A DNA stretch of 64,000 nt from Brevibacillus panacihumi W25 (GTDB taxonomy: Bacteria; Bacillota; Bacilli; Brevibacillales; Brevibacillaceae): the NCBI RefSeq assembly GCF_000503775.1, contig NZ_KI629782.1, forward strand, positions 1,031,540-1,095,539. Reading direction: 5' to 3'. Positions 26,475 to 36,050 of the stretch are shown in pieces (positions within the stretch are counted from its first letter, which is position 1; each line of letters opens with the position of its first letter). Both the position numbers and the translations under genes were made by a program. The notes below the pieces were generated by a model that was not told the origin of the DNA, ran no database searches, and saw only the letters and a program-made list of their open reading frames with translations.

Positions 26475-27578
26475 TTATACAGATAGTAGTCTTTTGCCTT
26501 CGGCAAGAATATTCAAACTTGCGTTCACATCCCTATCCCATTCGCTATGACAAGAAGGACATTTCCACTGTCGCAAATTAAGATTTTTAACTTCTTTGTT
26601 TTGGTATCCACAACACGAACAGAGCTGAGAGGAAGCGAATGTTTTGCCTACAGCAATGACAGTACGCCCATACCACTTTGCTTTATACGCAAGCATCGTT
26701 CTGAATTGATACCAAGACACTTCGCTAATCGCTTTGGCGAGTTTGTGGTTCTTCATCATATTCGATACTTGCAAATCTTCAATCGCAATGATGTCGTGGT
26801 TTTTGACAATATGCGTTGAAATTTTTTGCAAGTAGTCTATTCGGGCATTTGTGATACGCTCATGGATTGTGGCAACCTTCATTCGCTGTTTATTCCAGTT
26901 TGAAGAACCTTTCACACGTCTGGAAAGGGTGCGTTGTGCACAAATGAGTTTTTGTTCCATATTCCGTAGGAATTTCGGATTCTCAAATACTTCTCCATTT
27001 GAGAGAATCGCAAAATCTTTAAGTCCGACATCTATTCCAACTTCGCTGTTTGTTTTTGGTAATGGTTGCACGTCTGTTTCTACTAACAACGAAACAAAGT
27101 ATTTGCCAGAAGGATTGCGTCTAATCGTAGCATGTAAAATACGCCCTTCTGCTTCTCTTGATTTCGCAAAACGAACAAGTCCAAGTTTAGGGAGTTTGAT
27201 CTTATTTCCTTCAATCGCAATATTTCCATTTGTGTGTTTCGTTGTGTACGACTGAACTTTATTCCTTTTTGACTTGAAACGTGGTGCATCATTCTGCTTC
27301 TTGAAGAATCGTGAATAGGCGTCTGCGAGGTTCTTTACTGATGATTGAATAGCGATGCTATCTACTTCTTTTAGCCAAGGGAATTCTTTTTTCAGATTCG
27401 GCAGTTCGGAAGAACATACTCCGTATGATAATCCTTTACCTGTTTTTTTGTATGTTTCGTTCCACTTTGCCAAGAAGTGGTTGAACACAAATCGACTGCA
27501 ACCGATCGTTTTAGCAATGAATACTTCCTGCTCTTTGGTTGGATAGATACGGAATTTGTATGCTTTATTTACGAACAT
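26475..27578 (-). CDS. tnpB: TnpB RNA-guided nuclease of IS200/IS605 element
   Basis: 367 residues, full length. RuvC active site: Asp183 ([10 protein letters not shown]), Glu267 (IAIEDL) and Asp350 (DRDVNAS). The zinc finger is Cys320/Cys323 and Cys340/Cys343 (CSCCG...CPSC). The N-terminal helix-turn-helix OrfB domain begins [11 protein letters not shown]. All catalytic residues are present, so the protein should be active although its partner transposase is broken. It starts within the end of the tnpA remnant. Confidence 0.95.
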
Positions 27579-27934
27579 CGCTTTTCACCTCACTTTCTGA
27601 TTTTGGATGTATTGAGGATTCCAAAGATTCCCTCCCCATAGCTTCTTTTTTAGCTTGGGGGAACTCTTTAAATAGCAATCTTGCCGAAACACCCTTTAAT
27701 GCTTTGATAATATTTGGAATGGAATGTTGCGGATTACAATCAATGAGGAGATGAACATGGTCACAATCACTTTCCATTTCTGAGATCGTGAAACCGTTAT
27801 CTGTAGCAATTAAGTATTTCCTTTCGTTTTTTATCGATATCACCAAGCAACACTTTATGGCGATATTTCACACACCATACAATATGGTATTGGATAGAGC
27901 ACACATATCCTCTACCATGTTTGACATCTGCCAT
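27565..27934 (-). pseudogene. tnpA: IS200-type TnpA transposase, frameshifted and internally deleted
   Basis: The gene starts at 27934 (AGGTGG upstream) with MADVKHGRGYV and the HxVWCVKYR strand, then shifts frame near 27827. The HUH-nuclease motif continues in a second frame as SDCDHVHLLIDC and KALKGVSARLLF. A second shift near 27660 moves the LWGGNLWNP segment to a third frame, where about 20 codons are missing before YIQNQK. That segment still holds the Tyr-x3-Gln pattern of the catalytic tyrosine. At least two frameshifts and one deletion make it non-functional. Confidence 0.85.
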
Positions 27935-28179: not shown

Positions 28180-28401
28180 TCAAATCTCTAGTTCACCAAG
28201 TCGAACCAGTTCGACTACTGCTTGAGATCGACCTTTGACCCCTAATTTTTGCATGACATTGCTGATGTGATTGCGTACAGTCTTTTCACTGATGACGAGT
28301 TGTCCGGCAATCTCTTTGGTTGTCTTATCCTGGACCAAGAGTTCAAACACTTCTCTTTCTCGATTTGTTAACAACGGCTTGGTTTGGTCGCTACCCTTCA
28401 A
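28180..28401 (-). CDS. gerE: GerE, LuxR-type mother-cell sporulation regulator, cut off from its promoter and ribosome binding site
   Basis: 73 residues, the size of Bacillus GerE (74). It is a bare LuxR-type HTH with REREVFELLVQDKTTKEIA, ISEKTVRNHISNVMQKL and GVKGRSQAVVELV, matching GerE almost residue for residue from memory. GerE acts last in the mother cell, adjusting SigK-dependent coat genes. The only start is TTG 28401; upstream in frame is a stop, with no ATG and no Shine-Dalgarno sequence. The start codon lies inside the 14-bp junction repeat. The missing promoter and Shine-Dalgarno are at 35973-36050. As drawn, gerE should be silent until the intervening DNA is removed. Confidence 0.92.
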   Translation of the reverse strand: MKGSDQTKPLLTNREREVFELLVQDKTTKEIAGQLVISEKTVRNHISNVMQKLGVKGRSQAVVELVRLGELEI

Positions 28402-28402
28402 T
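28389..28402 (-). repeat. Junction repeat (attL side) of the gerE-intervening element
   Basis: CGCTACCCTTCAAT, identical to 35950-35963. It covers the first gerE codons (TTG AAG GGT AGC G on the minus strand). Just inside the element it is followed by AGTG, completing CAATAGTG. Confidence 0.85.
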
Positions 28403-28657
28403 AGTGAATTTGTGTTTTATCTATATTTATTTCGTTTCATCTACGATACCCGGAAACCATTATCATTACTAGGCTAGTCCTGCTTTGATGGCTTTTATAA
28501 AAATTGCTGTTAATTTTATTTTATCGGGTTTTTAACATCAAAATTAACAGCAAATCTTAGCCTAATGGCAGAAGTTTAATCACTCCACAAATCGACTGTT
28601 TAAGCATATCCCAAAGAGCTTGCGGCTTTTTGGAGCTAGAGCAAGCTAGAAGCAGGA

Positions 28658-28858
28658 CTACGCATCCTGCTTCTTACCATAAAACCATTCAAGAAAACTT
28701 TTTTTCGGTATCTTAATTCTACGACCTACGCGCACCACATGGAACTGCCCAGAGTTGGCAAGATCATAAGCCTGTACTTGACCGATTCCCAGGAACTGTT
28801 GAATGTGCTTGACCTCCAGGACTTCCGGCAAGTCATCACTTCTCAGTTCGTTCGTCAC
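28658..28858 (-). CDS. Excisionase-family DNA-binding protein
   Basis: 66 residues from GTG 28858, chosen because AGGGAGAGG lies 8 bases upstream; the frame also opens at ATG 28906. Winged-helix HTH_17 pattern: LEVKHIQQFLGIGQVQAYDLANSGQ then VVRVGRRIKIPKKSFLEWF. Such small proteins bend DNA at att sites and drive integrases toward excision. It lies close to the attL side, the usual place. A hairpin GAAGCAGGA/TCCTGCTTC follows the stop. A shortened paralogue is at 31304-31507. Confidence 0.85.
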   Translation of the reverse strand: MTNELRSDDLPEVLEVKHIQQFLGIGQVQAYDLANSGQFHVVRVGRRIKIPKKSFLEWFYGKKQDA

Positions 28859-29316
28859 ATTGATCACCTCTCCCTTTATTGATATTTCGTATTCTGCAAG
28901 TCCCATTACTTTAGGACATCTGACTTCACAACTTGAATGTCCAAATCAAGCGCCAGCTAATAAAATGCCTTCAGATTGTCTGTTTCTCTCCATCAGTCCA
29001 GCCGTACCGTCTCCCGGCTATGGCCTTTTTTTGCCGTATAGGACGCCTTCCAACTCGGAGAGATGCTTCTTGGAGTCGCCATCGCAGACGAGTGAGCCCT
29101 CTTCGATGACTGTTAGTGATACAAAGTTCAACGGGATGGGATACGCAGTTGCATATTTTTCGCCGCACCTTGTCCATGAAGTCGCTCATGCTCCCTTTAC
29201 TAATCGCTGGTTTCAAGGCTTATACCCTTTCAGCTTCTCAAGAAAAAAGTTATTTACATATTTTACCTTAAATGATAATTTATTGTTATAACTTTTGTGA
29301 GGAGGTGATCGACCCT
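28859..29316. other. Stretch without a confident gene
   Basis: On the minus strand 29026-29200 reads as a decayed coding region: one frame starts MSDFMDKVRRKICNC, and a second frame gives a compositionally normal tail ending GVLYGKKRP before 29026. No single frame has both a start with a ribosome binding site and a full length. The right end holds the promoter of the secreted peptide. Confidence 0.4.
29253..29281 (+). promoter_or_regulatory. Vegetative-type promoter of the secreted peptide gene
   Basis: TTTACA (29253-29258), 17 bases, then TAATTT (29276-29281), each close to the SigA boxes. The start codon is 35 bases further on. Confidence 0.5.
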
Positions 29317-29436
29317 ATGAAAAAGTTTCTTGCTGTTGTTTTTTCTGTAGCAATGGTTATGTCTGTAACGGCTGGAGCTACAGCTGCTGAAACACAAGGG
29401 TGTTATGCACAACGTGTTTGCCAAGAAATTTATTAA
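29317..29436 (+). CDS. Tiny secreted peptide with two cysteines
   Basis: 39 residues. Lys-Lys start, hydrophobic core (FLAVVFSVAMVMSVTAG) and an Ala-x-Ala site (ATAA-ETQ) predict a signal peptide that leaves about 15 residues: ETQGCYAQRVCQEIY. The two cysteines are five residues apart and could form a disulfide loop. GAGGAGGTGATC precedes the ATG, a promoter lies upstream and a terminator downstream, so it is a complete independent gene. The size resembles Phr-type signalling peptides or small bacteriocins, but no receptor or immunity gene is recognised nearby. Confidence 0.75.
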   Translation: MKKFLAVVFSVAMVMSVTAGATAAETQGCYAQRVCQEIY

Positions 29437-29470
29437 TTGAACTTGTATAGATTCATTACTGGAGTGGAGC

Positions 29471-29497
29471 TTAAGGGTACTTGATGTACCCTTTTCT
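29471..29497 (+). terminator. Terminator of the secreted peptide gene
   Basis: AAGGGTAC (29473-29480) pairs with GTACCCTT (29486-29493), followed by TTCT. Confidence 0.8.
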
Positions 29498-29770
29498 ATC
29501 GTTCGCTTCCTCCTCATCAAAAATCTCTCTTTTGTTAAATCGCCAATATTGAGCTTAAGATTACTTTGGCTTCATCATAACAAGAAAGCAACCTTTAAAG
29601 CTCTGCTAACGATTTGGCAAGACAGTAACGATGAACTGAGTTCTCATGCTCTGAAACTGCTCACCGTAGGCCGATACAGTTAACATATCGTGTGATGTGT
29701 GAATAATTGTTCTAACCGACCTTTTAACTGGCAATAATGCTATTGAAGGTTAAGGAGGTCAGTAAAAAAC
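29498..29770. other. Stretch without a confident gene
   Basis: A 44-codon frame from TTG near 29551 to about 29684 (ending LTVGRYS) has no ribosome binding site and is not convincing. The last 20 bases contain the AAGGAGGT site of the DUF2243 gene. Confidence 0.4.
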
Positions 29771-30187
29771 GTGAAGACAGCAGATATTGGAGCATTTTTA
29801 TTTGGTGTAGGTATTATCGGGATGCTAGATGGAATCGTTTTTCACCAAATTCTGCAGTGGCATAGTGTGAATATGCACACAGATCGATTTCACCAAATCA
29901 TGAGTGACGGGCTTTTTCATTTATTCGTAACTCTCGTCATATTTGTGTCAGGCATCTTGTTATGGAAAGGTAACCCCAAGGAACCATCAATTAGTTTTTG
30001 GGGCAGTTTCTTATTAGGTGCTGGAGCATTTAATCTTGTTGAGGGTATAGTTAACCATCACTTATTACAGGCTCATCATGTTAAACCAGGACCCAACCAA
30101 TTTCTGTATGACATTTCTTATGATATTTTCGCTCTGCTGCTTTTAACTATTGGTTGGATACTGCTGCGCCGGAGAAACGACGCTTAA
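29771..30187 (+). CDS. DUF2243 membrane protein
   Basis: 138 residues, four predicted transmembrane segments. It has the DUF2243 pattern GMLDGIVFHQILQWH near residue 17-31 and a second GxxNLVEGIVNHHLLQAHHV half at about 84-103; the repeated histidines could bind a metal or haem. The role is unknown. It starts with GTG, with AAGGAGGT 11 bases upstream. It is cargo of the gerE element. Confidence 0.85.
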   Translation: MKTADIGAFLFGVGIIGMLDGIVFHQILQWHSVNMHTDRFHQIMSDGLFHLFVTLVIFVSGILLWKGNPKEPSISFWGSFLLGAGAFNLVEGIVNHHLLQAHHVKPGPNQFLYDISYDIFALLLLTIGWILLRRRNDA

Positions 30188-30273
30188 ATCAATTATCGAT
30201 CAAATCGACGTCCATATTTAATTTGCTGTAATCGTTGCAACCAAGACGCTCTGCTTTGCATGGTTGCCGTAGA

Positions 30274-30468
30274 TCAAACTTCATCAGACAACCTCTTCTC
30301 TTTCGCGATCTCCTGGAGCGCGTGCCAGGTCTCCCGTTTCGCACTTTCCATCAACTCAAGCAGTTCGCGTGGTGTGGATCCGAAATCATCGACGAACATC
30401 GTCATGATGCCAGCCAACATCTGGTGATGCATGTTACCCGCATCGAATACCGTCTTTTTCTTTTCCAT
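30274..30468 (-). CDS. Small unrecognised protein
   Basis: 64 residues, soluble, mostly helical (STPRELLELMESAKRETWHALQEIAKEKR). GGGAGGGAACGGGG precedes the ATG. It follows the 30484 gene by 15 bases on the same strand, so the two are probably co-transcribed. Similar small proteins occur in phage and mobile regions. No function can be given. Confidence 0.6.
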   Translation of the reverse strand: MEKKKTVFDAGNMHHQMLAGIMTMFVDDFGSTPRELLELMESAKRETWHALQEIAKEKRLSDEV

Positions 30469-30483
30469 CCCCGTTCCCTCCCC

Positions 30484-30705
30484 TTATTCCACGCAATCAT
30501 TACAGATGCCGCCTTCCTCCATCGGCATTAGCTCTGTTTCCTGCTTACAGAACGTGCATGGCCCCATGAAGTTGCACCCGTCCGATAGCGTCTGCAATGC
30601 CGCCGTGACAATGGCAAGCTCTTTCGCTTCCTCCAGGTGAGCATTTCCAACCTTACCGTCTGGAGTTACCCCTTTGAAAGAGTAGCCGCCGTCATGTCTG
30701 TGCAA
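30484..30705 (-). CDS. Small zinc-ribbon-like protein, N-terminus uncertain
   Basis: 73 residues from TTG 30705. The C-terminus has CTFC and ICNDC, two Cys pairs that suggest a zinc ribbon. The frame is open back to about 30835 and encodes plausible protein (NPIENVADAIQIADTIFGEEW) but has no ATG or GTG. A GTG with a good AGGAGAGAG site at 30812 is in a neighbouring frame that stops after 19 codons. A one-base change in the A-run near 30785 would join them into a 108-residue gene. Confidence 0.55.
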   Translation of the reverse strand: MHRHDGGYSFKGVTPDGKVGNAHLEEAKELAIVTAALQTLSDGCNFMGPCTFCKQETELMPMEEGGICNDCVE

Positions 30706-30995
30706 CGTCCATTCTTCACCGAAGATCGTATCTGCTATTTGGATGGCATCAGCTACGTTTTCGATAGGATTCCAATTGCGCTCGGTTTTTCCGTTGCTGC
30801 CTTCCCTCCCACCCTCTCTCCTGAATAACTATATGTGGTAAATTAATTTCGGCATAATGAGTTATAGCATCTTCGCCGTGCCATCAGGATCTCGCCCCTT
30901 TTCTTATCTCCCTGAGCATTTTGTACGGTAACGAGAGACAACATTATTGATTAAAACGCGTCAAACAAATATCAACTTATTCGAGGTGAATACCG

Positions 30996-31268
30996 ATGTG
31001 GATTAAGCTATCTGCTGTCGCCTTGAACATCCTCCTCGGGATCGCAGGAGTCTATGTTCTACTATTTGTCATAATGACTGGTGGTGCACTTGATGGTAGC
31101 CGGTCTCCAAGTACTAGTCCCTTAGGGTATTTGGTCATCCTGATTTACTTATTAATATGTTTGGGAACCAATTTTCTTTTTGCCCGAAAGTCCTCAAGTA
31201 TCTGGAGGTATTGCCTAACAAGTGTTTCCGTGTGGCTCGTTTCATTTTTCATTACCATTCTTTTATAG
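30996..31268 (+). CDS. Small membrane protein
   Basis: 90 residues with three hydrophobic segments (5-27, 45-63, 70-90). TTCGAGGTG lies upstream of the ATG. No family is recognised. Cargo of the gerE element. Confidence 0.6.
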   Translation: MWIKLSAVALNILLGIAGVYVLLFVIMTGGALDGSRSPSTSPLGYLVILIYLLICLGTNFLFARKSSSIWRYCLTSVSVWLVSFFITILL

Positions 31269-31303
31269 GGGGGATTATCCGGAGTTTCACATCAAAATTA
31301 TCA

Positions 31304-31507
31304 TCAGACATAAAAATAAAGCAGGATCGCCCTACTCCTGCTTTGGATCGAAATTGCCCTCAAGCCAATGAGTCTTCCCACTCTGACAACATGAGATTGC
31401 CCCGAATTCACCAGCTCATATGCCTGAACGCGGCCAATGTTCAAATACTTCTGGATATGCTGCACCTCCAGTACTTCAGTAAGATCGACCTTGCTGAAAA
31501 TTCCCAT
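31304..31507 (-). CDS. Second excisionase-like protein, C-terminus altered
   Basis: 67 residues from ATG 31507 (GAGGGGAGGATGCAGG upstream). TEVLEVQHIQKYLNIGRVQAYELVNSG and VVRVGR match the excisionase at 28658 closely. After VGRLI the sequence departs (GLRAISIQSRS...) and loses the wing residues IKIPKKSFLEWF, as after a deletion or frameshift. The same AAAGCAGGA/TCCTGCTTT hairpin follows as after the first copy. It is probably a decaying duplicate with an intact recognition helix. Confidence 0.7.
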   Translation of the reverse strand: MGIFSKVDLTEVLEVQHIQKYLNIGRVQAYELVNSGQSHVVRVGRLIGLRAISIQSRSRAILLYFYV

Positions 31508-31722
31508 CCTGCATCCTCCCCTCCATACCATATGTTTACATGCAATTCCGGCTGTCTCATTCCTCCTAATTCTCTCTGGATCTCTCGTTCTTCATATGCA
31601 GGACAATAATACAGTCTAGAGCTGTGACGGTCGGTCAATAAATATGGACCGTCCTTTCTTATTTGTTGCAAATTGCCTAGATTTGGTATATTTAGGCTAT
31701 GTCCGAAAAAGGGGTATTCTCC

Positions 31723-32055
31723 GTGAAGCGAGATTTGTTGTTATTGCCGATCTATTTGATCCCATTTGTTTATTTGAAACTCCTGTGGGAATCTAGCGGT
31801 TATCCGTATGGGGACCTTATTTTACTCTCGCTGTTTTCAATCCTTGTCTTTTTACACAAAACCTTTCTCTTTTTACTCGTTGGCCATTTGCTTTCCTACA
31901 TAAGCTCTGAAAGTTTCTTCTCCGTCTTTGGCCTAGAAGAGTTTGGGTATTTTCAACCATTCAGAGTATGGGAAATGACGAGTCTGACCCATAGCTTTGT
32001 ATCTCCTGTCATTCTGATGTTGTATTTTGTTTTTCACCTCAAGAAATTCTTTTGA
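31723..32055 (+). CDS. Hydrophobic membrane protein
   Basis: 110 residues from GTG 31723, which has AAAAAGGGG 8 bases upstream (ATG 31699 has no such site). About three membrane segments: 4-22, 31-60 and a C-terminal one ending FVFHLKKFF. No family is recognised. A second membrane gene follows 41 bases later. Confidence 0.6.
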   Translation: MKRDLLLLPIYLIPFVYLKLLWESSGYPYGDLILLSLFSILVFLHKTFLFLLVGHLLSYISSESFFSVFGLEEFGYFQPFRVWEMTSLTHSFVSPVILMLYFVFHLKKFF

Positions 32056-32096
32056 CGTCAGGAACTACATGAAATAGCCGAAAGGATGTGCTTTCT

Positions 32097-32324
32097 TTGT
32101 CTCGTCGTTTGACTGGATTCGGTTTTTGTTTCTGTGCAACGCTATTATTTGCAGCCTATTACTTGGGGGCTGCGATCTTACACTCCGGACAAGGCTATGA
32201 TGACGTCGTATTTCAATGGTTTATCAGGGATACGTTCGCTTGGCTGCTCCCGATCCTTGGTTGTATTTTTCTCGTGACTGGTATCGGATACCTGGTCATG
32301 GCCGAATCACGGGGGGACGAGTAA
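32097..32324 (+). CDS. Small two-helix membrane protein
   Basis: 75 residues from TTG 32097 (AAAGGA 10 bases upstream; GTG 32088 is too close to that site). Two membrane segments at about 7-26 and 46-68. Follows the 31723 gene in the same direction, probably one transcript. Confidence 0.55.
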   Translation: MSRRLTGFGFCFCATLLFAAYYLGAAILHSGQGYDDVVFQWFIRDTFAWLLPILGCIFLVTGIGYLVMAESRGDE

Positions 32325-32380
32325 AACTTACCCTCACTCCGTAGCGTCTGCGCCTCCTTCTGGACAGTGTAGCCATAAAC

Positions 32381-32402
32381 AAAAACCGCCCGCGGGCGGT
32401 TC
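32381..32402 (-). terminator. Integrase terminator
   Basis: AACCGCCCG pairs with CGGGCGGTT (32384-32401) and five further T follow on the minus strand. Confidence 0.8.
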
Positions 32403-32415
32403 AATTGTTTGGACC

Positions 32416-33582
32416 TTATACTCGGTGGTCGGGATTCTCCGTATCATCGCATTGTACTTCTCTCGTTTTCTTCATCAGTCTATCGAGGCCGATAGCTGCG
32501 TCCTCCTGCATATTTGGCATCAGGTGCCCGTATGTGTCCATGGTGATCGAAACGGATGAGTGACCGAGCCGCTCGGAGATGACCTTGATGTGCACCCCTT
32601 GCTTGATCAACAGGCTGGCATGTGTATGGCGCAGATCATGAAAGGTGATCTTCGGCGCACCCGTCTTTTTCAAAAAGCTGGTCCATACCTTTTGTATCGT
32701 TCTCTGCGTAACAGGGCCGCCGAACTGGGTGCATACGACCAAGCCATGGTCCTCGTAGGCAGAACCGAGCGCTGCCCGTTCCATCATGATCAGCTTGTGA
32801 TGGTCCTGTAATACCTCTATCGTTTCAGGTGACAAGGCGACAGAGCGCATACTCTGTTTCGTTTTGCCCCCCTGCTTGATCTCTCCATGACGATTCACCG
32901 TCTGCTGGATGGTGAGAGTACGCTTTTCAAAATCAATATCCGACCAGCGAAGCCCCAGGATCTCCCCTTGCCGCATCCCCGTCATGACAGCCAGGTAAAT
33001 CGCAATCCAGTACCGGCTAGCCTGCTTGGTCTGCTCAAGAAACACACTTACATAAGCCGGGTCCCAAACAACAAGCTCCCTGCGTCTGGATACCTGGGGC
33101 TTCTCCACCTTATTTGCCGCATTCTTTGTAATCAGCTCCTTCGTCTCGGCAGCATTCAAAGCGGCGTTGACAACGGAAAAGATTCGCTTCACTGTTCCGG
33201 CTGCCAGTCCCTTATCGTGTAAGGAATTCAGGAACATCTCGATATCATGAGCCGTAAGCTTGGCAAGCGGAATATGGCCTAATACAGGAATGATGTGCGT
33301 CCTTAGATAGGAGTCGTACAATTCCAGGGTTTGTTCCCCCAGATTACGCTTTGTTTTTATCCAGTCCTGGAGATAGTCCCGGAAAAGCATCCTGCTCGGC
33401 TCTACGTATTGACCTTTCCTGCTGGCAGCCTGAGCCTCTACCATCGCCCTCTCCGCTTCCCTCTTCGTCTTGAAGCCTCGCTTGGTAATCCTCTTTCTCA
33501 CACCATTCTTGATCTCGCCCGTATAGAACTGGTACCACCATTTCTTGTCCCCCCTCGCCTTTTCATTCTTAAAGACCGGCAT
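32416..33582 (-). CDS. Tyrosine site-specific integrase
   Basis: 388 residues, full length for the Tn916/phage-type integrases. Residues 1-60 form an arm-site binding domain (Arg/Lys-rich), 65-155 a SAM-like core-binding domain, 175-375 the catalytic domain. The catalytic set is visible: Arg in MTGMRQGEILGLRW, the Lys in the beta-hairpin before, His-x-x-Arg in HDLRHTHASLL, His in RLGHSS and Tyr in MDTYGHL. Ribosome binding site GGAGGGGG. It is the only intact recombinase here and the candidate for excising the gerE element. A SigE-like promoter lies 140 bases upstream. Confidence 0.93.
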   Translation of the reverse strand: MPVFKNEKARGDKKWWYQFYTGEIKNGVRKRITKRGFKTKREAERAMVEAQAASRKGQYVEPSRMLFRDYLQDWIKTKRNLGEQTLELYDSYLRTHIIPVLGHIPLAKLTAHDIEMFLNSLHDKGLAAGTVKRIFSVVNAALNAAETKELITKNAANKVEKPQVSRRRELVVWDPAYVSVFLEQTKQASRYWIAIYLAVMTGMRQGEILGLRWSDIDFEKRTLTIQQTVNRHGEIKQGGKTKQSMRSVALSPETIEVLQDHHKLIMMERAALGSAYEDHGLVVCTQFGGPVTQRTIQKVWTSFLKKTGAPKITFHDLRHTHASLLIKQGVHIKVISERLGHSSVSITMDTYGHLMPNMQEDAAIGLDRLMKKTREVQCDDTENPDHRV

Positions 33583-33720
33583 CTGCGTTCACCCCCTCCG
33601 TTACATCCAATGACGAATGACGATAAATTAGCATCAAAACACAAAATGTTTTTATATAACGGGCTTCTTTTCAAAAATTGGGCTTGTTTTGTTAGTCTTT
33701 TTTGGGCAAACGCCCATTCC

Positions 33721-33747
33721 AATGTATGGGCAAACGCATAGGTATAC
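33721..33747 (-). promoter_or_regulatory. SigE-like promoter upstream of the integrase
   Basis: On the minus strand CATACATT (33721-33728) fits the SigE -10 consensus, and GTATACC (33741-33747) gives the central ATA of the -35, 12 bases away. The -35 match is partial. If real, the integrase would be made in the mother cell, as is the skin recombinase. Confidence 0.4.
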
Positions 33748-33851
33748 ATCAAGTTCTAATAACAGGAGATCGCCTTCATACTAAACTCTTAAAATATAGA
33801 TCTGCCTGCTAATTACTCTGTTCCCCTAAAACACTCATTTGGAGGTACCGT

Positions 33852-34643
33852 ATGGCAGATGAATTCGTTGAAAGGTCACTAGACGAAATTCGTTTTTGGT
33901 CGCGTATCATGAAGGAACACTCGCTTTTTCTGAAATTAGGTTTTACCTGTGAAGACACTCAATTAATCCAGGAAGCGGACCGTTTTTACAGCATTTTTGA
34001 GAATATTGAAAACCGGGCACTTGCCTTTACTCCAGATGTTGATCCCCGAGTAATCTACGATTTTAACAATGTAGTTCACACTGCCACTTGTCATATTTGG
34101 GCATTCAAGCGAAAAGTACTTGGATTAATCATTCAATGCAAAATCCTCGGTAGCAACTTCCCTTTGTTGGTGGATCATGTAAGTCGGGAAGCGGCTTATT
34201 TCATGAATCGACTGAAACAATTGAATACAGGAACCCTTGATCCATTGCCGGATGCCGTCATAAATGAAAATGTGTTCTTCCTGAAGATTATGGCTGACCA
34301 TGCAAAATTCATAAATCACTTGCTAGATCCGTCTGAGAGAAAGTTAGTTGAGCAAGCGCGAGATTTTAGCCATGACTTTGATCAACTCCTCTTTCAAGCT
34401 ATTGATCTTGACTCTATGCGTCCACAATCACAAACCCAGCCCCTCCTCGATCAATTTGTTGATCAAAATCGTGTATCAGTACGCCAATTACGAGATTTTA
34501 AGAAAACTGCACGTGATCTAATTGAAGCATGTCGGATTAAGAGTATTATCCCTCCATTACTTGCTGACCACGTCTTTAGAGAAGCCTCTCATTTCCTTGA
34601 AATACTCGACGCCTTTGATGCAGCTCTGTCACATTCCAAGTAA
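33852..34643 (+). CDS. DUF2935 protein (second copy)
   Basis: 263 residues. Like the gene at 16083 it has two helical halves, IRFWSRIMKEHSLFLKLGF and NVFFLKIMADHAKFINHLL, each followed by VDHVSREAAYFMNRL or ADHVFREASHFLEIL. These Glu and His positions are the likely metal ligands of this ferritin-like family, whose role is not known. GGAGGTACC precedes the ATG and a terminator follows. It is cargo of the gerE element, and its base composition is more AT-rich than the chromosomal copy. Confidence 0.85.
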   Translation: MADEFVERSLDEIRFWSRIMKEHSLFLKLGFTCEDTQLIQEADRFYSIFENIENRALAFTPDVDPRVIYDFNNVVHTATCHIWAFKRKVLGLIIQCKILGSNFPLLVDHVSREAAYFMNRLKQLNTGTLDPLPDAVINENVFFLKIMADHAKFINHLLDPSERKLVEQARDFSHDFDQLLFQAIDLDSMRPQSQTQPLLDQFVDQNRVSVRQLRDFKKTARDLIEACRIKSIIPPLLADHVFREASHFLEILDAFDAALSHSK

Positions 34644-34650
34644 CTCAAAT

Positions 34651-34675
34651 ATCCCCTTTTAGGGGGATTTTTTTA
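34651..34675 (+). terminator. Terminator of the DUF2935 gene
   Basis: ATCCCC (34651-34656) pairs with GGGGAT (34663-34668), then seven T. Confidence 0.8.
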
Positions 34676-34809
34676 TGCTCAGGTATTTCAGCGTGTGCTG
34701 TGTTAATCGTTCCACCTTGAACAGTTTCACATTCATGACTCAAGAATGCAGACAAACACCCATTTTGCAGGTTCTCCATATCTGTCATATTCACCCTAAG
34801 GAAGAAAAT

Positions 34810-34818
34810 CATATCCTA
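34810..34818 (+). promoter_or_regulatory. SigK-like -10 before the element's glycosyltransferase
   Basis: CATATCCTA fits CATANNNTA. An AC lies 15 bases upstream, one short of the usual 16-17. The gene starts 76 bases downstream. Confidence 0.3.
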
Positions 34819-34894
34819 TCTGGAAAGTCTGACACTCTGGCCGACCTGTTCAGTCACATTTGCTTAAAGTGCTTAACGAAAAGGAGTTGAGAAG

Positions 34895-35686
34895 TTGACG
34901 ATCAAAATTGATGTCCTAATCCCAGCTATTGAGAAAGACCTTGGCACTCTCCCTTATGTCATTGACAGTATCCGTAAGCAAGTGAAGCATCCGGTCGGTA
35001 AGATCATGCTTGTATCGCCACCAAGCAAGCGAATACAAGCCCTTTGCCGGCGTAAAAACTGCACCTTCATCAATGAAAGACGCGTCCTTCCTATTTCAAA
35101 AAAAGACATTCGCTACCAAACCAAACGCACCAATCGCTCAGGCTGGCTGCTCCAACAATTGTTGAAGCTGGCGGGTGGAAACTTGACCAAGCATCGGTAT
35201 TATCTTGTGATTGACGCCGACACCGTCCTCATCCGCCCTCATGTCTTTCTCGTCAAAGGGAAAACCGTTTTTTACTGCCGTAACTGGAGTCGTCCCGAGT
35301 ATTTTCGCACCTATAAGAAATTACTGGGGACCAAGCCAACCGCCTCGCGCTCTTTCGTTGCCCACTATATGCTGTTCGACAAAGCGAAGCTATCCCGACT
35401 GAAGCGTAAAATTGAAGCCAGGCATAAGACTCGGTGGTACTGGGCAATTATCAAAAAGACCAACAAACAGAGTTATGCCGGCTTTTCCGAGTTCGAAACA
35501 TACGGTAACTTCGTGAAAGCTCACTACCCCGGTCATCTAGTTGTAAGAAGTTCCCTTAACAAAAGCTCCTCTTCAACACCAGCATCCCTTACTCGTAAAC
35601 GAATCATCAGACTGGCCCAGAAATACAGGTCCATTTCCTTTCATAAACGCCGCTGGTATATCCGAAAGAGGGGCGTGAGAAAATGA
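34895..35686 (+). CDS. DUF6492-type glycosyltransferase
   Basis: 263 residues from TTG 34895, with AAAGGAG 8 bases upstream. It begins IDVLIPAIEKDLGTLPYVIDSIRKQV and has the nucleotide-sugar/metal motif YLVIDADTVLI, the pattern of DUF6492 putative glycosyltransferases. The C-terminal third is very Arg/Lys-rich. The acceptor is unknown. It is the last complete gene of the gerE element, and a SigK-like -10 upstream hints at mother-cell expression. Confidence 0.75.
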   Translation: MTIKIDVLIPAIEKDLGTLPYVIDSIRKQVKHPVGKIMLVSPPSKRIQALCRRKNCTFINERRVLPISKKDIRYQTKRTNRSGWLLQQLLKLAGGNLTKHRYYLVIDADTVLIRPHVFLVKGKTVFYCRNWSRPEYFRTYKKLLGTKPTASRSFVAHYMLFDKAKLSRLKRKIEARHKTRWYWAIIKKTNKQSYAGFSEFETYGNFVKAHYPGHLVVRSSLNKSSSSTPASLTRKRIIRLAQKYRSISFHKRRWYIRKRGVRK

Positions 35687-35847
35687 AGTACCTTTTGGAT
35701 CTCCCTTTGTGTGACAGGACCTCCAAAATGCCTGCACACGACCAAGTCTTACTTTTCATAGGCAAGACCAAGCGCCACCAATCCCCGCCTCGGATCCTCT
35801 TTCTCCATTTTTTACCGTCCCCACCTTCTCATTCTTATTAACGGCAT
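35687..35847 (-). pseudogene. Remnant of a second integrase gene
   Basis: On the minus strand an ATG at 35847 with AGGAGGCG upstream starts a broken copy of the integrase N-terminus (compare KNEKARGDKKW at 33582), frameshifted after MPL. It is joined directly to a piece of the catalytic domain, LGLAYEK-stop-DLVVCRHFGGPVTQREIQKV. That piece matches LGSAYEDHGLVVCTQFGGPVTQRTIQKV in the intact integrase. About 700 bases between the two pieces are gone. It lies next to attR, the normal integrase position. Confidence 0.8.
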
Positions 35848-35898
35848 ATGTACTCGCCTCCTAAAAACATCAAATTAGCATCAAAATAGGAATACGAT

Positions 35899-35943
35899 AT
35901 AAAAAAGTGGCACAAATCCTTGTTTTATAAGGATTTGTACCAC
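35899..35943 (-). terminator. Terminator just inside the gerE element
   Basis: GTGGCACAAATCCTT (35907-35921) pairs with AAGGATTTGTACCAC (35929-35943) with one mismatch; the minus strand then has six T. A transcript from the stranded gerE promoter would end here, after encoding only a 30-codon stub (35870-35962). Confidence 0.75.
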
Positions 35944-35949
35944 TATTGG

Positions 35950-35963
35950 CGCTACCCTTCAAT
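35950..35963 (-). repeat. Junction repeat (attR side) of the gerE-intervening element
   Basis: CGCTACCCTTCAAT, identical to 28389-28402. Inside the element it is preceded by CACTATTGG; outside it continues CGTG toward the gerE Shine-Dalgarno. Confidence 0.85.
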
Positions 35964-35972
35964 CGTGCCACC

Positions 35973-36050
35973 CCTCCTTGTGGGCTCTACAGGAACAAGG
36001 TTGAGGGATTACAGAGTCACCTTATCCTATGATGGGGGGTGGGTGATGGT
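35973..36050 (-). promoter_or_regulatory. gerE: Stranded gerE promoter and ribosome binding site
   Basis: Minus strand: AC (36049-36050), 17 bases, CATAGGATA (36023-36031), an exact SigK promoter match. AAGGAGG follows at 35973-35979, 10 bases before the TTG that begins the junction repeat copy. This is the expected 5' region of gerE, which SigK transcribes in Bacillus. It is separated from the coding region by the element. Confidence 0.8.

Follow-up and report, generated by a model that had tools for sequence, protein, structure and literature searches.

A phage-derived element with a tyrosine integrase separates gerE from its promoter and Shine-Dalgarno sequence in Brevibacillus panacihumi W25

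We wondered how the sporulation gene gerE of Brevibacillus panacihumi W25 might be expressed when its promoter and Shine-Dalgarno (SD) sequence are encoded more than 7 kb away. The locus lies in a stretch of 64,000 nucleotides of contig NZ_KI629782.1 (positions 1,031,540 to 1,095,539), called the window here, whose numbering is used throughout. A first-pass annotation of this DNA had described the gerE coding region (28180-28401, minus strand) as starting with TTG without an SD or a promoter. Indeed, the open reading frame (ORF) is as described, and nothing resembling an SD precedes its TTG in the present layout. The TTG lies inside a 14-base repeat (CGCTACCCTTCAAT on the plus strand, ATTGAAGGGTAGCG on the minus strand) which, as had been noticed, occurs at 28389-28402 on the gene side and again at 35950-35963 on the promoter side; extended to 18 nt, the two copies are identical at 17 positions. 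On the minus strand, the promoter-side copy is preceded by AAGGAGGGGTGGCACG and a SigK-type promoter: the stranded AAGGAGG is at 35973-35979 and the promoter (ACC-16-CATAGGATA) at 36023-36050. The annotation had called this promoter exact; it matches the consensus, but as a match and not a mapped start it does not deserve the adjective. Both signals are displaced by 7,561 bp, beyond the repeat, and removal of 28403-35963 places AAGGAGG 10 bases before the TTG, as had been calculated. With the split, the repeat and an integrase gene all present, the proposal that a 7.56-kb integrase-bearing element parts gerE from its expression signals is borne out. The element is real and well bounded, and the mechanism suggested for it is the best reading: we hold it about 80% probable that a phage-derived element separates gerE from SD and promoter and is excised by its own integrase in the mother cell.

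Joining the window's flanks in silico gave a sequence identical to the uninterrupted gerE start at 78-79 of 80 nt in 22/22 loci of the genus and at 75-79 of 80 nt in 5/5 loci of other genera. The 60 nt presently upstream of gerE matched the same 27 loci at only 15-17 positions. These 27 are the uninterrupted ones among 30 gerE loci; the split loci L001 (the window's own), L016 and L020 were left out, and genome G003, described below, stands outside the 22. The predicted excision product is therefore the normal gerE of the genus, as the first-pass annotation had anticipated, and relatives lacking the element have an uninterrupted layout unlike that of the window. Recombination of the direct end repeats would thus restore gerE as it is found in relatives, which is also what characterizes skin and gin, the elements that interrupt sigK and gerE in other spore formers. 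The promoter-side and gene-side patterns are present in all 26 genomes of the genus, our strain's included. SD and gerE start are joined in 23 of them and apart in three, the gap being 7,561 bp in W25, 5,056 bp in B. panacihumi JCM 15085 and spread over two contigs in B. centrosporus NRRL NRS 664.

The identity of the gene is supported by a structure search, in which GerE (1FSE) was the closest solved structure (E = 1.7e-33). A second gerE, which would have spoken against a switch, was not found in the genome of the strain; the next-best match (E = 5e-14 versus 4e-41) lies in a 250-aa frame. As with skin and gin, the interrupted gene is hence a mother-cell sporulation gene without a second copy. 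The TTG is no sign of damage because gerE begins with it in each of the 25 rows compared within the genus; these come from 24 genomes, the window's included, and 20 of the 25 were chosen with a search pattern of which the TTG is part and which was present in 20/20 loci tried.

As skin and gin do, the element itself (28403-35963; G+C fraction 0.443 versus 0.498 for the window) carries an intact gene for a site-specific recombinase, and it has a candidate for the directionality factor. The recombinase is a tyrosine integrase (int, 32416-33582, minus strand; PF00589) with arm-binding, SAM-like and catalytic domains. R204, H315, R318, H341 and Y351, which we take to be the catalytic residues, are invariant in three aligned sequences including the window's. 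The gene xis1 (28658-28906, minus strand) encodes an intact excisionase-like HTH_17 protein, a candidate Xis by this family assignment and by position. Residues 11-82 of Xis1 are 93% identical to the counterpart beside the phage attachment site (attP) of a B. massiliensis phage contig, and the structure search returned no solved relative up to an E of 1. Arm motifs (TTTTGATGYTAA) flank both ends of the element, with a left site at 28529-28551 (TTTTGATGTTAA on the minus strand), whose motif also occurs on both sides of the B. massiliensis attP, and right sites at 35868-35886 (TTTTGATGCTAATTTGATG on the minus strand). Integrase, Xis, core and arm sites are arranged as in the attP of a temperate phage with a tyrosine integrase. 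Just inside the promoter-side core, a terminator-like hairpin with a U run (35903-35947, minus strand; -23.4 kcal/mol, z -7.6) faces transcription from the gerE promoter; a hairpin is present in B. panacihumi JCM 15085 as well (-20.7, z -4.2), and that of B. centrosporus is weak (z -0.7). Structural or packaging genes were recognised neither among 14 element ORFs (Pfam, PHROGs) nor among seven (NCBIfam), a scan that did not extend to smaller ORFs. Likewise, the 14 ORFs held no recognisable gene for conjugation, replication or capsid hijacking as expected of an integrative and conjugative element or a phage satellite.

The phage source of this element can be traced. A 60,477-bp contig of B. massiliensis phR (L085), with phage genes including one for a tail sheath, carries in succession Xis, arm, ATTGAAGGGTAGCG, a hairpin-like repeat, arm and integrase, which represents an uncut attP. 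Its integrase is 84% identical to the window's, and the gerE start in the same genome is uninterrupted. The circle joint predicted for the window aligned with this attP through the core (88 of 106 columns). The gerE start of B. centrosporus NRRL NRS 664 (L038 and L079) is the site of a more complete prophage, which is spread over two contigs: genes for terminase, portal and major head protein lie towards gerE, and the integrase, 81% identical to the window's, lies towards the promoter. Both relatives share the core and the arm motif with the window element, and B. centrosporus shares its site as well; unlike B. centrosporus with its head and packaging genes and B. massiliensis with its tail genes, the window element has no such gene that we could recognise. 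Because the integrase gene of B. centrosporus is only 72% identical in DNA, its integration was probably a separate event. At 6547-7883 of L038, oppC and gerE point towards each other, an arrangement seen neither in the window nor in B. panacihumi JCM 15085, as though the block of gerE and prophage had been turned around with respect to oppC.

The integrase was found at E <= 1e-120 in four of 39 genomes of the family, our strain's included. Three of the four are split at the gerE start, and the fourth possesses the uncut attP with the same core and an intact gerE start. At all three split sites the gene side reads ACTATTG (phage type) and the promoter side ACGATTG (host type), so that in the window ACT precedes the core at 28389-28402 and ACG the core at 35950-35963, as expected if the exchange takes place inside the core. 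A protein search with the integrase scored 8,000 candidates and yielded 1,236 relatives; among the 120 listed, 21 were at least 70% identical, and all nine of these that carry an organism name are Brevibacillus. A known phage with this integrase was sought and dismissed: the best-ranked of 3,612 matches among 50,697 phage records was 32% identical and all were below 60%. The eight loci found in IMG/VR were 23-30% identical, attP core and flank had no exact match in IMG/VR, and the one IMG/VR contig with the gerE start pattern is split at the site used by gin rather than at the start.

How long has the element been there? The part from 31272 to 35963 is collinear with the element of B. panacihumi JCM 15085, the three longest blocks being 90-92% identical. 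The segment 28403-31271 has no counterpart there and contributes a Xis, an arm and a core of its own. Because of this left segment and the remnant of a second integrase gene adjoining the promoter-side end (35689-35837, minus strand), the element looks as if related phages had accumulated at a single site. Comparison of int between the two species gave 0.044 nonsynonymous (dN) and 0.352 synonymous (dS) substitutions per site and thus a dN/dS of 0.126, indicating purifying selection. The dS of int and of the cargo genes for DUF2935 and DUF6492 proteins was 0.28-0.35, similar to that of the flanking host gene oppC (0.302), suggesting that the core element probably dates from about the time when the two species diverged; an ORF at 31699 (0.157) and gerE (0.063) had lower values. 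When neutral evolution was simulated, 0.25% of 2000 runs with 0.15 substitutions per site left int without a stop, and 0/2000 did so with 0.30. By these measures, int has been kept since the species split.

Three further genomes of the genus (G002, G012 and G018) contain a normal gerE with an SD, followed 3.1, 5.7 and 10.6 kb downstream by a gerE without one. Of these SD-less copies, that of G002 is truncated, that of G018 carries a frameshift, and the G012 copy is complete and nearly identical; the flank is of the phage type in two of the three and of the host type in G012. In G012, a single difference separates the two copies across gerE and some 95 bp beyond its 3' end, whereupon the first gerE runs into int in mid-frame, and what is left of int carries stops. 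By eye, int-like sequence also follows the first gerE in G018; no int remnant was found in G002. We read these genomes as hosts that probably regained a promoter-linked gerE by a duplication which broke the element. A gerE carried in by the element is less likely, since the G012 duplicate and its flank end where int begins in mid-frame and G018 has int-like sequence likewise. Together with the loci described above, we find it rather probable that the genus and its kin retain the whole path from a phage with an uncut attP through a gerE prophage and a stripped switch to hosts that escaped by regaining gerE. A decayed gerE duplicate that kept its SD is also seen 1.2 kb downstream of the intact gene in another genome (G015, L081 2198-2391).

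We propose that the tyrosine integrase, likely helped by Xis1, would cut the element out in the sporulating mother cell by recombination through the 14-bp core, rejoining promoter, SD and gerE. Until then, the hairpin inside the promoter-side core may act as a stop, keeping transcripts that start at the gerE promoter out of the element. The spore would keep the element because only the lysing mother cell would lose it. As to timing, int could be read in the mother cell from a SigE-type promoter candidate at 33721-33747 (minus strand; TGTATACC-11-CCATACATTG). The site recurs in B. panacihumi JCM 15085, and no matching region was found in the phage forms. A figure legend gives the SigE spacing as 12 +/- 1, which the 11 bases observed here fit (PMC517825). 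That the gerE promoter itself drives int is unlikely in the window, where the strong hairpin and oppositely oriented cargo lie in between; it is conceivable for the phage arrangement of B. centrosporus, judging from int beginning about 270 bp after the core and from the weak hairpin.

Several observations weigh against excision as the normal fate of the element in sporulation. The SigE-type pattern is expected to match 0.31 times by chance within the element. No strict promoter match was found before xis1, the only candidate there being a loose SigK-type match about 400 bp upstream, to a pattern with six matches expected. Given such chance expectations, mother-cell timing is a reasoned guess, and it is by inference from these sequences that we link excision to sporulation. 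The excisionase-like copy xis2 (31304-31531, minus strand) departs at its C-terminus from the copy in B. panacihumi JCM 15085 and reads as probably broken. In that strain the promoter-side core is one base short, which might slow recombination. The contig of B. massiliensis ends without overlap, so that a free circular phage is not proven for this species. GerE of the window carries an F36V substitution that is absent from the other 24 rows. That gerE is intact is weak evidence since the gene is short: at 0.15 substitutions per site, 29% of the neutral runs left it without a stop. Finally, displaced gerE is whole in all three genomes without a promoter-linked copy, but the comparison with redundant copies sets three genomes against three, and one of the redundant copies is whole.

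Other explanations of the locus were weighed. The most serious of them, though an unlikely one, supposes that the element is a defective prophage whose excision is occasional or provoked by DNA damage and has no link to sporulation, gerE being off in most cells. The integrase belongs to a phage-type family that sits in fuller phages, xis1 lacks a strict promoter match, and the directionality factor of SPbeta has both a stress-inducible and a mother-cell promoter (PMC6957869). Such a prophage is, however, hard to reconcile with an int open since the species split in an element without a recognised structural phage gene, or with the SigE-type site that precedes int in both domesticated forms and whose region the phage forms lack. 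Alternatively, the insertion may have cut off gerE for good, leaving spores without GerE or no spores at all. F36V and the broken xis2 would fit such a dead gerE, yet the gene is open, its protein is 98.6% identical to that of B. panacihumi JCM 15085, two split species keep int intact, and two of the three displaced copies that became redundant have decayed. We regard this outcome as improbable. Expression of gerE in place, from a promoter within the element, would have room in about 125 bp of non-coding DNA between gene-side core and left arm; but this stretch holds no SigK- or SigE-type match, no SD precedes the TTG, and the frame upstream of gerE is open for five codons only, which makes this very improbable. 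An assembly error or chimaeric contig might be suspected in an assembly of 11 contigs, but the separate assembly of B. panacihumi JCM 15085 has the orthologous layout on one contig, with the 90-92% identity given above, and we consider the chance of an artefact negligible. Excision by the element's own integrase in the mother cell thus remains our preferred reading.

How does this element compare with known systems? The first-pass annotation had mentioned a gerE element of a Bacillus cereus strain. This is gin of B. cereus ATCC10987, a 28.6-kb element at codons 47-49 with the serine recombinase GirC and GirX, whose excision in mid-sporulation has been shown; gerE of B. glycinifermentans harbours a prophage with an integrase 52% identical to GirC (PMC5595907). 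A prophage in gerE is therefore known as such. Like gin, the window element interrupts gerE, ends in a short direct repeat, and has a recombinase and a putative directionality factor; excision would likewise restore gerE. Unlike gin, it measures 7.56 kb, uses a tyrosine integrase and Xis-like HTH_17 proteins, sits between SD and start codon and has a traceable phage source. Homology with gin was rejected since recombinase class and insertion site differ: the serine recombinases GirA, GirB and GirC have no counterpart here, all five PF07508 matches of the genome lying outside the window, and the insertion is at the start codon instead of codons 47-49. That element is unrelated to ours in recombinase and site.

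The term skin-like holds as an analogy, but not for the recombinase, which is of the tyrosine and not the serine class. Mother-cell genes are also split by skin (sigK of B. subtilis and C. difficile), SPbeta (spsM), vfbin (spoVFB) and yin (yabG); the recombinases named for skin, SPbeta, vfbin and gin are serine enzymes, and that of yin, with resolvase and recombinase domains, is likewise of the serine kind (PMC6957869, PMC5595907, PMC10747680). The window element resembles them in being phage-like and residing in a mother-cell gene, and its predicted removal matches theirs in sporulation. Whereas the skin and gin kind splits the coding frame, gerE of the window is whole and only its expression signals are parted. 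Tyrosine-type recombinases excise the heterocyst elements of cyanobacteria, e.g. the nifD element with XisA, in a terminal cell; the resemblance is in recombinase type, while phylum, gene and development differ. What is new here is the tyrosine class, the mode of interruption at the start codon and the path from phage to switch, in an element that works like gin and skin but is not gin. Our search of the open-licence literature, as far as its text could be searched, turned up neither a sporulation gene with a tyrosine-recombinase element nor any element at the start of gerE or elsewhere in gerE of Brevibacillus, which is not proof of absence. Breaks of the gin type also occur in our material: the match to gerE breaks off at residues 48-50 in G003 (L041/L083), G027 (L042) and G055 (L045), at 49 in the IMG/VR contig (L115) and at a contig end in G053 (L044). 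The 3' part of gerE in G003 is found 38 kb further along, and 0.7 kb ahead of it is a serine recombinase.

The gerE promoter being of the SigK type, we also considered sigK. In our strain this gene is split, with residues 3-69 encoded at C1:862387-862584 and residues 61-227 at C1:802622-803122, 59 kb apart on one strand, and a serine recombinase at C1:803868-804215. This outlying region (G000:C1:802622-862584) has the make-up of a skin-type element with its serine recombinase next to the 3' half. Synthesis of GerE would consequently need two excisions. It seems to us somewhat more than an even bet that this constitutes a two-key lock, in which the late mother-cell regulators SigK and then GerE become available only after a serine and a tyrosine element have both left, and that the latter is, to judge from the literature searched, the first sporulation switch with a tyrosine recombinase and the first to unplug a gene from promoter and SD instead of splitting its frame. 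Both genes are split in our strain, in B. centrosporus and in G003; sigK of B. panacihumi JCM 15085 is whole. Across the genus, a SigK match above the curated cut-off was obtained in 11 of 26 genomes, and in the other 15 the gene is in pieces, with breaks near residues 60-72 or 98-121. Two cases stand out: sigK of G011 seems to be divided in three, as if the gene held two elements, and the two pieces in G009 are on opposite strands.

DNA switches in mother-cell genes recur in spore formers. Here, a single 14-bp site presents a graded series, from no element through a fuller prophage and a stripped switch to an element outflanked by a second gerE, and it therefore becomes testable whether such elements are selfish riders or useful timers. 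The window element suggests that switches of this sort do not depend on serine recombinases, and that separating a regulator from nothing more than its promoter and ribosome-binding site is enough to lock it. With sigK in pieces in 15/26 genomes, Brevibacillus looks like a rich genus for the study of programmed DNA loss.

The element contains further ORFs, three of them cargo. The accreted left segment brings as cargo a DUF2243 membrane protein (29771-30187, plus strand), whose gene is followed on the minus strand by those of a small protein of a phage family without assigned function (phrog_11210, 30274-30468) and by a small ORF without a family match (30484-30705). An ORF without assigned function (31699-32055, plus strand) is 91% identical in B. 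panacihumi JCM 15085. The DUF2935 gene (33852-34643, plus strand; dN/dS 0.031) and the DUF6492 gene (34895-35686, plus strand; dN/dS 0.080) follow; the latter is preceded by a SigK-type promoter candidate at 34793-34818 (plus strand), common to B. panacihumi JCM 15085, with 1.06 matches expected by chance. A literature search for a link between DUF2935 and spores turned up only one, unrelated, paper. NCBIfam offered no name for Xis or cargo, PHROGs named no further ORF of the element, and Pfam matches of one 78-aa ORF were below the curated cut-offs. A palindromic GACGGTC...GACCGACCGTCA stretch upstream of xis2 (about 31620-31655, minus strand) resembles a repressor operator and is conserved in B. 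panacihumi JCM 15085. Outside the element, directly downstream of gerE, a TnpB transposase-like frame (26475-27578) and a TnpA-like frame (27565-27846), both on the minus strand, appear by eye to be of the insertion sequence IS200/IS605 type.

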